This document shows, one piece after another, positions 18,372-30,075 of a DNA stretch of 39,114 bases. The stretch's first letter is position 1. Each line of letters starts with the position of its first letter. This stretch comes from Spirochaetota bacterium (lineage in GTDB: Bacteria > Spirochaetota > UBA4802 > UB4802): contig JAOAIH010000006.1 of NCBI GenBank assembly GCA_026414805.1, positions 1-39,114 on the forward strand, in the 5' to 3' direction. Made by a program: the position numbers and the translations under genes. The notes beneath the pieces are model-generated. The model saw only the letters and a list, made by a program, of their open reading frames with translations. It was not told the origin of the DNA and made no database searches.

Positions 18372-18400
18372 TTGACTCAAGTTAAATTTTTTGTTATTAT
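18372..18400 (+). promoter_or_regulatory. predicted promoter of trxB-selenoprotein operon
   Basis: TTGACT (18372-18377, 5/6), a 17-base spacer and TATTAT (18395-18400, 5/6). It covers the TTG codon at 18391, so translation must start downstream, at ATG 18433. Confidence 0.65.
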
Positions 18401-18432: not shown

Positions 18433-19416
18433 ATGGAATTGACATTTAATTTACCGGGACTTGAAACAATTGAACAACGAACTGTCCCCTTGGACAGTTC
18501 ATTTGTGTATGATGTTTTAATTGTTGGTGGTGGTCCAGCAGCACTCACCGCAGCAGTCTATTGTATGCGTAAAGGAATTAAGACAGGTCTTATTACCCTT
18601 GATGTAGGGGGTCAGGTTGCCGAAACCTCAACAGTTGAAAATTATATGGGATACAGACATATAGAGGGCATATCTTTAGTGCAGCGTTTTAAAGAGCAGG
18701 TTGAACAATTTGAAATAGGCTTCCTTCAAGGGTATAAAGCAACAAAAGTAATTGATGGTAACATTAAAAAAGTAGAATGTGAGGACGGGAATACCTATCA
18801 GGCTAAATCAATCATTATAACTACAGGAAAACGATGGCGCAGGCTTAACGTACCCGGCGAAGCTGAACTTACCGGAAAAGGGGTTGCTTACTGCGCTATC
18901 TGTGATGCACCTCTTTTCAAAAACAAAGATGTTATCGTGGTAGGCGGAGGCAATTCAGCAGTAGAAGCCGCCATTGACCTTGCAAAATTAGCTAACTCTG
19001 TTACTGTGATTCAACTATTACCAACATTAACTGCTGACAGAGTACTTATTGATGAATTATCAAAATTTACTAATGTTTCGATTCTATTTGAACACGAAAT
19101 AAAAGCAATACATGGAACCAATGCAGTTGAATCAGTTTCGGTACATGATAAAAAGAATAAAAAGGACCATACTCTTGTAGTTCAGGGTATCTTTATTGAA
19201 ATTGGACTTGTTCCTAATAGTGAGCTTGTAAAGAATGTAGTTGCATTGAATGAATATGGTGAGATAATTATTGATTGCAGCTGCAGAACATCACGACCGG
19301 GCATCTTTGCAGCAGGCGATGTAACATCCGTCCCTTATAAACAGATAATCATTGCAGCAGGGGAAGGTGCCAAAGCAGCTTTGTCAGCCTGCGATTATGT
19401 CTTAACCAATAAATAA
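18433..19416 (+). CDS. trxB: thioredoxin reductase-like flavoprotein
   Basis: A 327-residue NAD(P)H-dependent flavoenzyme that passes electrons to thioredoxin-type proteins. The FAD motif is VGGGPAALTAAVY (about 31-43), the redox-active disulfide is Cys154-Ala-Ile-Cys157 in YCAICDAP, the NAD(P)H motif is VVGGGNSAVEAAIDLA, and the second FAD motif is PGIFAAGDVTSVPYKQ. I use ATG 18433 rather than an in-frame TTG at 18391, because a good promoter overlaps the latter. The stop is 21 bases before the two-domain redoxin gene with the in-frame UGA, so reductase and substrate are almost certainly encoded together. The NADPH-binding HRR motif of classical TrxR is not evident, so cofactor preference is open. 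Confidence 0.92.
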   Translation: MELTFNLPGLETIEQRTVPLDSSFVYDVLIVGGGPAALTAAVYCMRKGIKTGLITLDVGGQVAETSTVENYMGYRHIEGISLVQRFKEQVEQFEIGFLQGYKATKVIDGNIKKVECEDGNTYQAKSIIITTGKRWRRLNVPGEAELTGKGVAYCAICDAPLFKNKDVIVVGGGNSAVEAAIDLAKLANSVTVIQLLPTLTADRVLIDELSKFTNVSILFEHEIKAIHGTNAVESVSVHDKKNKKDHTLVVQGIFIEIGLVPNSELVKNVVALNEYGEIIIDCSCRTSRPGIFAAGDVTSVPYKQIIIAAGEGAKAALSACDYVLTNK

Positions 19417-19437
19417 AATTTATGCAGGAGGTACATA

Positions 19438-20079
19438 ATGCCACTTTTTGACGACAAAGTAAAATCACAATTATCCCAGTTACTATCTAAAATAAAAGAT
19501 CCAATCGTAATAAATTTTTTTACTCAGGAAATTGAATGCCCAACATGTCAAACTACTCATCAATTTGTTGAAGAGATAGCCAGCCTCAATAACAAGATTT
19601 CGCTTAGAGTGTTTGATCTGGTAAAAAATTCTGATGTTGCCAAAGAATATGGCATCGATAAAATTCCAGCTATTGTGGTAACCGACTCACAAAATACCAT
19701 CAAAGGAGTACGTTTCTTTGGGATACCTGCTGGATATGAAATTAATTCATTTATTGCTGCCTGTATTGAAGTTTCAGGGGTTAAAGAAACATTGCCCGAA
19801 GCAATTCTTTCAAGAATAAAAAAAATATCAAAACCTATTCATATTCAGGTATTTGTCACCCTCACCTGACCATACTGTCCGGGTGCAGTTGCATCCGCTC
19901 ATAAGCTAGCAATAGAAAATCCAAATATTAAAGCTGACATGATAGAAAGCACTACCTTTACACCACTTGCGGTAAAGCACAATGTTTCTTCAGTACCCAA
20001 AGTAGTGATAAATGATATCTATGAGTTTGTTGGGGCTCAGCCAATCAATGTATTTTTAGATATGATAGAGAAGGTATAA
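19438..20079 (+). CDS. selenocysteine-containing protein disulfide oxidoreductase (two thioredoxin folds), UGA at codon 144
   Basis: Reading through TGA at 19867-19869 as selenocysteine gives 213 residues ending at TAA 20077-20079; stopping there would leave 143. The protein has two thioredoxin-fold halves, as in the PDO/glutaredoxin-like family. The first contains Cys34-Pro-Thr-Cys37 and a cis-Pro segment KIPAIVV. The second contains Sec144-Pro-Tyr-Cys147 (VFVTLT-U-PYCPGAVASAHKL) and SVPKVVI. UGA replaces exactly the first cysteine of the CPYC site, and family-like sequence resumes at once in the same frame. A SECIS-like hairpin follows (19880-19897). UGA is used as an ordinary stop elsewhere here (ribF, greA), so the code is not reassigned. 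AGGAGG precedes the ATG. The role is thiol-disulfide exchange fed by the adjacent reductase (inference). sel genes are not in the window. Confidence 0.88.
19867..19897 (+). promoter_or_regulatory. UGA (Sec) codon and bacterial SECIS-like hairpin
   Basis: After the UGA and ten further bases, 19880-19886 pairs with 19891-19897: seven base pairs including one G-U, closed by the loop A-G-T-T (19887-19890). The loop G is the second loop base and lies 19 bases after the UGA. This fits the known bacterial SECIS pattern (short apical loop with an early G, about 16-37 bases from UGA). As I recall the E. coli fdhF element, it has the same spacing and a G-U step in its loop. There is no bulged U in the stem, a difference from fdhF. 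Confidence 0.75.
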
Positions 20080-20089
20080 AAATGTAATT

Positions 20090-20173
20090 TGCCGCGAGAG
20101 GGATTCGAACCCTCACAGGCGTACGCCCACCAGACCCTGAACCTGGCGCGTCTACCAATTCCGCCATCGCGGC
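20090..20173 (-). tRNA. tRNA-Leu (anticodon CAG)
   Basis: Read on the minus strand, the acceptor stem GCCGCGA pairs with TCGCGGC. The D loop contains GGTAGACGC, and the anticodon stem CCAGG/TCTGG encloses TTCAGGG, giving anticodon CAG. A long variable arm follows (GGGCGTACGCCT), as in class II leucine tRNAs, and the T arm has GGTTCGAATCC. The discriminator base is A; CCA is not encoded. The 3' end faces the selenoprotein gene only ten bases away. Confidence 0.97.
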
Positions 20174-20287
20174 ATGTTTATTGTATTGATTTTATCACAT
20201 TACATATTTGTCAAATAAAAATTTTTAATTAAAATTCTTACGGACTTTTTAAGCAATTAGAATTTATCCATTTCTTGCATAAAAAAA

Positions 20288-27549: not shown

Positions 27550-28440
27550 ATGAAAACATATCCATTTTATTTCTATACGGGCGTTGTTTTGATTCTTTTC
27601 ATGCAAATCTGCTTAATACTTGATTTTAGCTCTATAACCATTTGGGCTACTCCAACTTTGTGGACAGGATTGATCCTTCTATTAGATGGTATACTTGCCA
27701 AAACTAACCGTTCATTAATCCAGAACAAAGCCTTAGCTAAATTAGCAATTATCTCAGTAGTGGCGTGGTGGATGTTTGAATGGTTTAACATATATTTTTC
27801 AAACTGGCACTATCAGGGATTAGTACAATCTCTTAGTGTACGTTACTTTGGGTATGTCTGGTCATTTGCAACAATCTTTCCTGGTGTTCTTTTAGTATAT
27901 GGCATTGTACTTACAATTGTGCCAAGAATTCTGTATAAACAGTTGCATCTTACTTCTGCGTTTCTTGTTGCATCCTTCATCATTGGCTTATTGTTTCTTT
28001 TCATCCCCATACTGCCATTCTCAATGTATTATACAGGCAGGGCTGCAGATCCTGATCTTTTCATTTGGCTTAAGTGGGCAGCCAACACTTACTTCAGCGA
28101 ATTTACTGCAGGGTTTATCTGGTTAGGATTCATCTTCATTCTTGAACCTGTTAACTATCTCTTAAACCGACCATCCCTATATGCTGATCTGGTACTGGGG
28201 AAATACACAAAGCTTGTAGCAGTTTTAGTTTCAGGACTTCTGTGTGGTTACTTATGGGAATTCTGGAACTGGCGAGCAGCTACTAAATGGATATATACTG
28301 TACCCATACTTCCGCACATAAAATTATTTGAAATGCCAATTTTGGGGTATATTGGTTTTGCAACATTTGCCTGGGAAATTTACGCTATTACTGCACTTAT
28401 ATACCCTAAAGCCTTACTGATTCTGGAACGAGAGCATTGA
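27550..28440 (+). CDS. polytopic membrane protein of unknown function with internal duplication
   Basis: A 296-residue protein with about eight hydrophobic segments and no signal peptide cleavage site. Two similar blocks suggest internal duplication: WWMFEWFNIYFSNWHYQG (about 77-94) and GYLWEFWNWRAATKWIY (about 236-252), each with W/Y-x-F/W-E-x-x-N...W-x-Y inside or next to a membrane segment. The second is followed by LPHIKLFEMPILGYIGFA. The conserved Glu, Asn and Trp residues within the membrane look functional, but I cannot name a family. AGGGAGG gives a strong ribosome site. It lies between metF and the pyrophosphatase gene, six bases before the latter, so these three genes may be cotranscribed. 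Confidence 0.7.
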   Translation: MKTYPFYFYTGVVLILFMQICLILDFSSITIWATPTLWTGLILLLDGILAKTNRSLIQNKALAKLAIISVVAWWMFEWFNIYFSNWHYQGLVQSLSVRYFGYVWSFATIFPGVLLVYGIVLTIVPRILYKQLHLTSAFLVASFIIGLLFLFIPILPFSMYYTGRAADPDLFIWLKWAANTYFSEFTAGFIWLGFIFILEPVNYLLNRPSLYADLVLGKYTKLVAVLVSGLLCGYLWEFWNWRAATKWIYTVPILPHIKLFEMPILGYIGFATFAWEIYAITALIYPKALLILEREH

Positions 28441-28446
28441 TTAACC

Positions 28447-30075
28447 ATGGAAGAAATTATTGTCATTGGCCATAAAAATCCTGATACCGATTCAATTTGT
28501 GCAGCATATTGTTATGCACACCTTAAAAACATCATTGACCCACATAACAGGTATATTCCCTACCGATGTGGCAACGTTAATAGGCAAACACGCTTTGTCT
28601 TTGAAGAAGCTGGCCTAAAGCCGCCAGAGATTTTGAAAGACGTGTATCCCAAAGTAGGCGATATAATGACTCGCAATGTTATTACAGCTTATCCTGAAGA
28701 CCCATTATTTTCAATAATACAGCACATTGAAAAAGACAGAATACGCATAATTCCTATAGTTGATGGCGATAGTTACTATAAAGGGATCGTAAGTTTTGCT
28801 GAGCTTGCAGAATTTTATTTTTCTACTACATCCACTGCACATCCCGTGTATTACTTTAAGCCTGATAATTTCATTACAACCATTCCAGGTCACTTTATTA
28901 AAAGAGGTCAACCAGAGGAGTTTGAAGGCCATATCGTCATTGGTGCAATGGATTCAGCACAATCGCTCAATGTTTTAAAAAACGTTACTCCTGAAAAAAC
29001 AGTACTTATTGTTGGCAACCGCAAAAAAATAATTGAATTTGCAATCCAGCATAATTTTGCTGCAATTATTGTAACAGGCACCCAGGATTTTAATTATAAC
29101 ACAAGTACCTATTTGGGCTGGGTGTACCTATCAAAGTTAGATACATTCAATACATTGCGCCTGCTTACTCTGAGTATGCCATGTCACTATATCATGAGGC
29201 AAGCGGATAGTATTTCGCCGCAAAATACGGTTCAGCAAGCACGGGAACAATTACTAAAGAGCGAATACCGTGGACTGCCAGTATGTGACAATGGTAAGCT
29301 CACTGGTATAATCACCCGTTCAGATCTTATTAAGCACTATGCCAAGAAAATGATACTTGTTGACCACAATGAACTATCGCAGGCAGTTGAAGGTGCCCAA
29401 ACGGCTCATATCATAGAAATTATTGACCATCACCGGTTAGGTGCAATTAAAACAACAATGCCCATATTTGTTTATTCCAAACCAGTAGGCAGTACCTGCA
29501 CGCTTATCTATGAGTTGTATAAACACAATGGGGTTCAACCCCACCCCTCAATTGCACTTCTTCTGTGCAGCGGGATATTATCAGATACTGCAATGCTGTT
29601 ATCTCCTACAAGCACCGAGATTGATAGAAAAGCACTGGAAGAATTATCGGCAATTGCAGGTATACAGTATCAGGAATACGGGAAGAAACTGCTTTCATCA
29701 ACTGAAAGTCTTAAAACCATGGACCCAATGTATGTAGTAAGCAATGATTGCAAAATCTATCAGGAATATGGCATCTCAGTTGCCATCTCGCAGGTTGAAG
29801 TTATTACACTTGATGATGTTGAAAGCGTTAAGGACGCACTTCTTTCTGCATTGTCAGAATTTGCCAAAAGCAAAAATGTACATTGGGCATTATTACTGGT
29901 AACTGATATTACCACACAGAATAGTATACTCTTCTCCACTGATTTCAAAGGCCAACAAAATCTTAGTTATTCTGAAATTGCACCAAACATGTACAGCCTG
30001 CCAGGTATACTTTCTCGCAAAAAACAGCTGCTACCAGAAATACTGCGCATTTTAGAAGAGCTATCGCACAAATAA
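28447..30075 (+). CDS. ppaC: manganese-dependent inorganic pyrophosphatase with CBS-DRTGG-CBS regulatory insert
   Basis: A 542-residue family II (DHH) pyrophosphatase that hydrolyses PPi to phosphate. Catalytic motifs: GHKNPDTDSICAA at the N-terminus, then after the insert VDHNE and IIEIIDHHRLG, and SGILSDTAMLLSPT. The insert of about 250 residues contains a first CBS domain (DIMTRNVITAYPED, about 75-125), a DRTGG-like domain (about 150-225) and a second CBS domain (YIMRQADSISPQ...GIITRSDL, about 245-300). In characterised CBS-pyrophosphatases this insert binds adenine nucleotides, with AMP/ADP inhibiting. All Mn ligands appear intact. The ATG lies six bases after the preceding stop. Confidence 0.95.
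   Translation: MEEIIVIGHKNPDTDSICAAYCYAHLKNIIDPHNRYIPYRCGNVNRQTRFVFEEAGLKPPEILKDVYPKVGDIMTRNVITAYPEDPLFSIIQHIEKDRIRIIPIVDGDSYYKGIVSFAELAEFYFSTTSTAHPVYYFKPDNFITTIPGHFIKRGQPEEFEGHIVIGAMDSAQSLNVLKNVTPEKTVLIVGNRKKIIEFAIQHNFAAIIVTGTQDFNYNTSTYLGWVYLSKLDTFNTLRLLTLSMPCHYIMRQADSISPQNTVQQAREQLLKSEYRGLPVCDNGKLTGIITRSDLIKHYAKKMILVDHNELSQAVEGAQTAHIIEIIDHHRLGAIKTTMPIFVYSKPVGSTCTLIYELYKHNGVQPHPSIALLLCSGILSDTAMLLSPTSTEIDRKALEELSAIAGIQYQEYGKKLLSSTESLKTMDPMYVVSNDCKIYQEYGISVAISQVEVITLDDVESVKDALLSALSEFAKSKNVHWALLLVTDITTQNSILFSTDFKGQQNLSYSEIAPNMYSLPGILSRKKQLLPEILRILEELSHK

Follow-up and report, generated by a model that had tools for sequence, protein, structure and literature searches.

The "homolog of AhpF, amino-terminal domain" was listed as a selenoprotein family by Zhang and colleagues in 2006, with selenocysteine (Sec)-type members in Carboxydothermus hydrogenoformans and Symbiobacterium thermophilum (PMC1794560), and later reviews tie this family to TIGR02187 with a UxxC motif (PMC9312934, PMC13188914). 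A Sec form of the TIGR02187 family is also described from Asgard archaea of the Sifarchaeia/Borrarchaeales (PMC11227280). Sec/Cys interconversion leaving a remnant SECIS is known in other families, and the selenoproteins given for the spirochaete Treponema denticola are only SelD, Gpx, GrdA, GrdB and thioredoxin (PMC1794560). The bacterial SECIS element is defined as a stem-loop just 3' of the UGA with a small apical loop that contains a G (PMC1088965). A relay from NTR through a protein disulfide oxidoreductase (PDO) to a peroxiredoxin has been described in Sulfolobus solfataricus (PMC7278568).

Here we analyze a window of 39,114 nucleotides (the whole stretch, positions 1-39,114 of contig JAOAIH010000006.1) of a Spirochaetota MAG (GCA_026414805.1, labelled G000), in which a first-pass annotation had proposed an undeclared selenoprotein, a two-domain disulfide oxidoreductase that standard gene calling would end at residue 143, losing the catalytic second domain. 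Homology, a downstream hairpin, the recurrence of TGA among relatives and the decoding machinery, except for an intact selB, support this proposal, and the UGA at 19867-19869 almost certainly encodes Sec in the active site of a PDO.

Results

The gene and its neighbours

Translation of 19438-20079 meets a single UGA, at residue 144, followed by 69 sense codons and a TAA (Table 1). The read-through protein aligns to PDB 1a8l over residues 12-210 (E=3e-37) and scores 250.7 bits against NCBIfam TIGR02187.2 (PDO_seleno_TRX; curated cut-off 185) over residues 6-212, covering positions 2-208 of the 209 of the profile. Two thioredoxin domains are present, one with a CxxC (CPTC) and one with a UxxC (UPYC, residues 144-147), and judged by these matches the gene product is a two-domain PDO of the TIGR02187 family. 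The first-pass annotation had placed the UGA where the family has the first Cys of CPYC in its second domain, had called the 69 codons past it family-like with a cis-Pro segment of their own, had confined Sec to the second site with CPTC kept at the first, and had noted a reductase gene 21 bases upstream. All of this is borne out: in the alignment that it had proposed, the first Cys of the second CPYC of 1a8l faces residue 144, the profile match runs on past the UGA, the SVPK segment lies beyond it, and 21 bases separate the reductase stop from the PDO.

Table 1. Features of the PDO locus, in window coordinates
Feature	Position	Strand	Description	Basis
Thioredoxin-reductase-like flavoprotein	18433..19416	+	CAIC active site	Pyr_redox_2 2.8e-48; AhpF, TRX_reduct matches
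Shine-Dalgarno-like AGGAGG	19426..19431	+	upstream of PDO start codon	sequence
PDO coding sequence	19438..20079	+	213 aa, predicted Sec at residue 144	frame, homology, selection
First-domain active site	19537..19548	+	CPTC, residues 34-37	sequence, homologs
In-frame UGA, read as selenocysteine	19867..19869	+	U of UPYC	TGA/TGC/TGT in every homolog read there
SECIS-like hairpin	19880..19897	+	7 bp CGGGTGC/GCATCCG, loop AGTT, G at 19888	comparative support
Proline codon of second-domain cis-Pro segment	19996..19998	+	SVPK (P187)	sequence, alignment to 1a8l

The upstream reductase, which may alternatively be read from a TTG at 18391, matches TRX_reduct at 309.7 bits, under the curated cut-off. In nearly all loci of the order that were read, a homologous reductase directly precedes the PDO on the same strand, and the reductase of the window probably supplies its PDO with electrons. 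An identity with AhpF was rejected, as there are two genes instead of one and both the reductase (382.7 bits) and the PDO (101.7 bits) fall below the cut-off of 502.9 of the AhpF profile TIGR03140. The minus strand carries a tRNA-Leu (CAG) at 20089-20174, 9 bases past the PDO stop codon, in a position that is apparently retained in several congeners, and this tRNA was the sole match in an Rfam search of the window at the gathering threshold.

The codons past the UGA

The length of the open frame was dropped as proof of read-through, since 2.5% of the TGA trinucleotides of the window are likewise followed by at least 69 sense codons. What raises the reading above chance is the homology across the UGA, the recurrence of TGA at one codon and the low dN/dS downstream, which amounts to 0.028-0.087 against four congeners, with synonymous sites near saturation, and is not higher than upstream. 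By this measure the codons past the UGA are under purifying selection that is strong and at least equal to that on the upstream part. That the UGA is a true stop and the 143-residue product functional might be argued from the use of UGA as a stop in this genome and from the termination that is to some extent expected at Sec codons; yet conservation past the UGA is as strong as before it, and homologs ending at residue 143, by which the first-pass annotation would have been refuted, were not seen among those examined, the full-length ones ending near residue 213. We therefore regard a functional truncated product as exceedingly unlikely.

The UGA could also be read as another amino acid, either by genome-wide reassignment (Trp, Gly) or by a near-cognate tRNA, for which nothing but the open frame past the UGA can be adduced. 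TGA ends 6 of the 30 listed genes of the window, in three cases with merely 3-7 more sense codons after it, and thus a global reassignment, which had been declared excluded on the strength of the neighbouring stops, is better called unlikely; as, in addition, homologs switch solely between TGA and Cys codons at codon 144 and the genome carries tRNA-Sec, selA and selD, any such decoding of this UGA has in our view a negligible probability. Elsewhere in the window, the gene at 27550-28440 ends in a TGA six bases ahead of the in-frame ATG of the next gene, and 544 in-frame codons follow this TGA because the next gene is in the same frame; the region 27550-30075 holds a normal junction between genes that one might take for recoding.

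Relatives with Sec and with Cys

A match to the protein was found in 35 of 46 genomes of the order. Codon 144 is TGA in G000, G014, G009, G010, G035 and G036. The remaining full-length homologs that were read have TGC or TGT there; they include the congeners G015, G016 and G017, whose proteins are 84-88% identical to the window PDO. TGA was also found at this codon in other phyla, in the Chloroflexota loci L105 and L135 and in L107 of the Nitrospirota/Nitrospirae. Within the order, all five Sec-type genomes besides G000 carry selA and tRNA-Sec, and selA is present in the genomes of L105, L107 and L135. As to the Cys-type congeners, G015 and G016 retain the Sec machinery; in G017 no selA was found and the best match to tRNA-Sec is a tRNA-Ser.

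Two further loci were noted in this survey. A Chloroflexota PDO (L111:647-1276) has a TGA at the second Cys of CPYC (CPY-TGA); it was rejected as a Sec site, its genome being without a selA match and its hairpin weak, and an error or a pseudogene is likelier. In the Nitrospirae MAG (L107:3001-4660) a Sec-type PDO and a thioredoxin reductase form a continuous fusion, arranged as in AhpF; SPSC replaces CxxC at the first site of this fusion, and only the second, UPYC, looks complete.

The hairpin downstream of the UGA

The hairpin of the window starts 10 nt past the UGA, and the G of its loop lies 19 nt from the last base of the UGA. Single-sequence folding was dropped as proof of a SECIS: compared with shuffles the window hairpin alone shows no greater stability (z=-0.71, not significant) and 7% of its synonymous recodings fold as well, so that the support for it is comparative, and a comparison among relatives was used instead. 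The distinct TGA sequences (9/9) have a stem of 6-7 bp, the same loop offset and a GU in the loop. The 9 Sec sequences have a mean MFE of -10.0 kcal/mol and the 105 Cys sequences one of -5.7 kcal/mol (Mann-Whitney p=2e-5, which is optimistic because the compared sequences are related), and a stem of at least 5 bp is formed by 9/9 Sec versus 38/105 Cys sequences (p=2e-4). On this comparative footing the window hairpin corresponds to the bacterial definition of a SECIS. The PDO genes of G000 and G014 are 76% identical overall, and their longest identical run, of 41 nt, spans the UGA and the hairpin, the next one being 20 nt. The Cys-type congeners G015-G017 are without the hairpin (3 bp); G017 retains the 5' arm and the loop, not the 3' arm, as would be expected of a relic.

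A sequencing or assembly error converting TGT or TGC to TGA was to be considered, as the nearest relatives, G015-G017, have Cys codons, and a Cys codon in relatives had been named beforehand as a sign of such an error. The Cys codons are indeed there, but they do not indicate an error because these are separate species with diverged DNA and not reads of the source genome; moreover, eight further genomes share the TGA and have the hairpin at the same offset, and it is the Cys-type relatives that lack it. An error at this codon is hardly conceivable.

A tree of 40 sequences requires at least 6 changes of state between Sec and Cys. Within the genus of the window, the first branch is G014 and the second G000, both of the Sec type, and the three Cys species are nested, a topology for which one gain followed by one Sec-to-Cys reversion is as parsimonious as two gains. 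The shared hairpin together with its relic in G017 favours the reversion.

Selenocysteine machinery

A search of the genome for the Sec machinery, as had been suggested, recovered most of it. On contig C20 of the bin, a tRNA-Sec with UCA anticodon (71.7 bits, C20:44886-44975) lies directly ahead of selA (471 bits, C20:45006-46268, truncated where the contig ends), and selD (363 bits, C20:43598-44524, L052) is of the Sec type, with an in-frame TGA in the SGUAAK motif. The selD of G000, which precedes tRNA-Sec and selA, is thus a selenoprotein gene as well. The bin thus contains selA, selD and tRNA-Sec, all three of which are expected beside a bacterial selenoprotein.

It is selB that came out only as an interrupted copy. 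It was found on C77 alone (from about position 427), behind a selA tail, and the overlap between this tail and the end of C20 is 351 bp long at 91% identity. Two contig ends of one operon at this identity suggest a mixture of strains in the bin, and C77 probably derives from another strain than C20. The C77 selB (L143) has, with no frameshift, an in-frame TAA at about codon 334 (about position 1426), ahead of the C-terminal, SECIS-binding part; three congeners have sense codons at this site. Past the TAA, pN is 0.28-0.32, compared with 0.30-0.31 for G014 with G015 or G016; since divergence in this part does not exceed that among intact relatives, the stop arose recently, is confined to the strain or is an error. 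When the bin was searched again with the DNA flanking selB, no other selB copy was found. The main caveat of this work is that the Sec-decoding apparatus is not fully demonstrated in the assembly, selB being the one weak link, because its sole copy carries a TAA, on a contig whose apparent source is a strain variant of 91% identity. It is conceivable that SelB consists here of two polypeptides split by the TAA, one for GTPase and tRNA binding and one for SECIS binding, and that such a split factor inserts Sec, although we hold this to be very improbable.

The interrupted selB also bears on the possibility that the UGA is a nonsense mutation in a decaying pseudogene, or that Sec decoding was just lost through a broken selB. 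Such decay would be in line with the TAA in the only selB copy, with the Cys of three congeners and with the one congener without selA and tRNA-Sec. It agrees poorly with a dN/dS of 0.03-0.09 past the UGA at nearly saturated synonymous sites, with the UGA and hairpin identical to those of G014 and with the retained UGA of selD; nor does selB itself speak for decay, given its probable origin in another strain and its undiminished conservation past the TAA. Hence we consider a pseudogene or a recent loss of decoding improbable.

Discussion

Based on frame, homology, hairpin, downstream selection, a recurring UGA and most of the decoding machinery, all read from sequence, we propose that the gene encodes a Sec-containing PDO of the TIGR02187 family, a protein of 213 residues with CPTC and UPYC sites that is probably driven by the reductase and into which Sec is inserted by SelB and Sec-tRNA-Sec with the aid of the hairpin, a reading that we consider very probable. 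The hairpin would recruit SelB with Sec-tRNA-Sec, and SelB would insert Sec at the UGA to yield a protein of two thioredoxin folds. The adjacent thioredoxin-reductase-like NAD(P)H flavoenzyme would probably reduce the PDO, which may pass electrons on to protein disulfides or to a peroxiredoxin, and the nucleophilic attack would come from the selenolate of Sec, the N-terminal residue of UPYC. Within this scheme, Sec insertion itself, the electron donor, the substrates and the nucleophilic role of Sec are inferred.

The first-pass annotation had left it open whether Sec in this two-domain family was undescribed; the published lists (PMC1794560, PMC9312934, PMC13188914) and the name of TIGR02187.2 correct this, as Sec in the TIGR02187 family is already known and has been catalogued since 2006, and no new selenoprotein family is added here. 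What is new is the Spirochaetota members and the switching between Sec and Cys within one genus. This genus, two species of which have Sec in the active site and three have Cys, is a compact natural experiment, in which near-identical proteins make it testable what Sec costs a PDO and what it contributes.

The known Sec-type members of TIGR02187 share with the window PDO the curated family, the UxxC motif and a predicted SECIS-directed decoding of UGA, a likeness that for these members, including ABB15282.1, is drawn from family profile and motif; they differ in their hosts, that of the window PDO being a Spirochaetota lineage. Sec-containing thioredoxins and glutaredoxins likewise carry UxxC in a thioredoxin fold, but are single-domain proteins, whereas the window PDO has two domains. 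In AhpF, the alkyl hydroperoxide reductase F subunit, the N-terminal part is PDO-like and the C-terminal part resembles the upstream reductase of the window; AhpF, however, is one polypeptide, whereas in the window the two are separate genes in reversed order, with CxxC-type sites kept in both domains. The Cys-type PDOs of Pyrococcus furiosus (1a8l) and P. horikoshii (1j08) and the related 2ywm/2ayt are built, like the window protein, of two tandem thioredoxin folds, with a CxxC in each, and align with it along its entire length, yet they come from hyperthermophilic sources and have Cys at the second site, where the window protein is predicted to have Sec.
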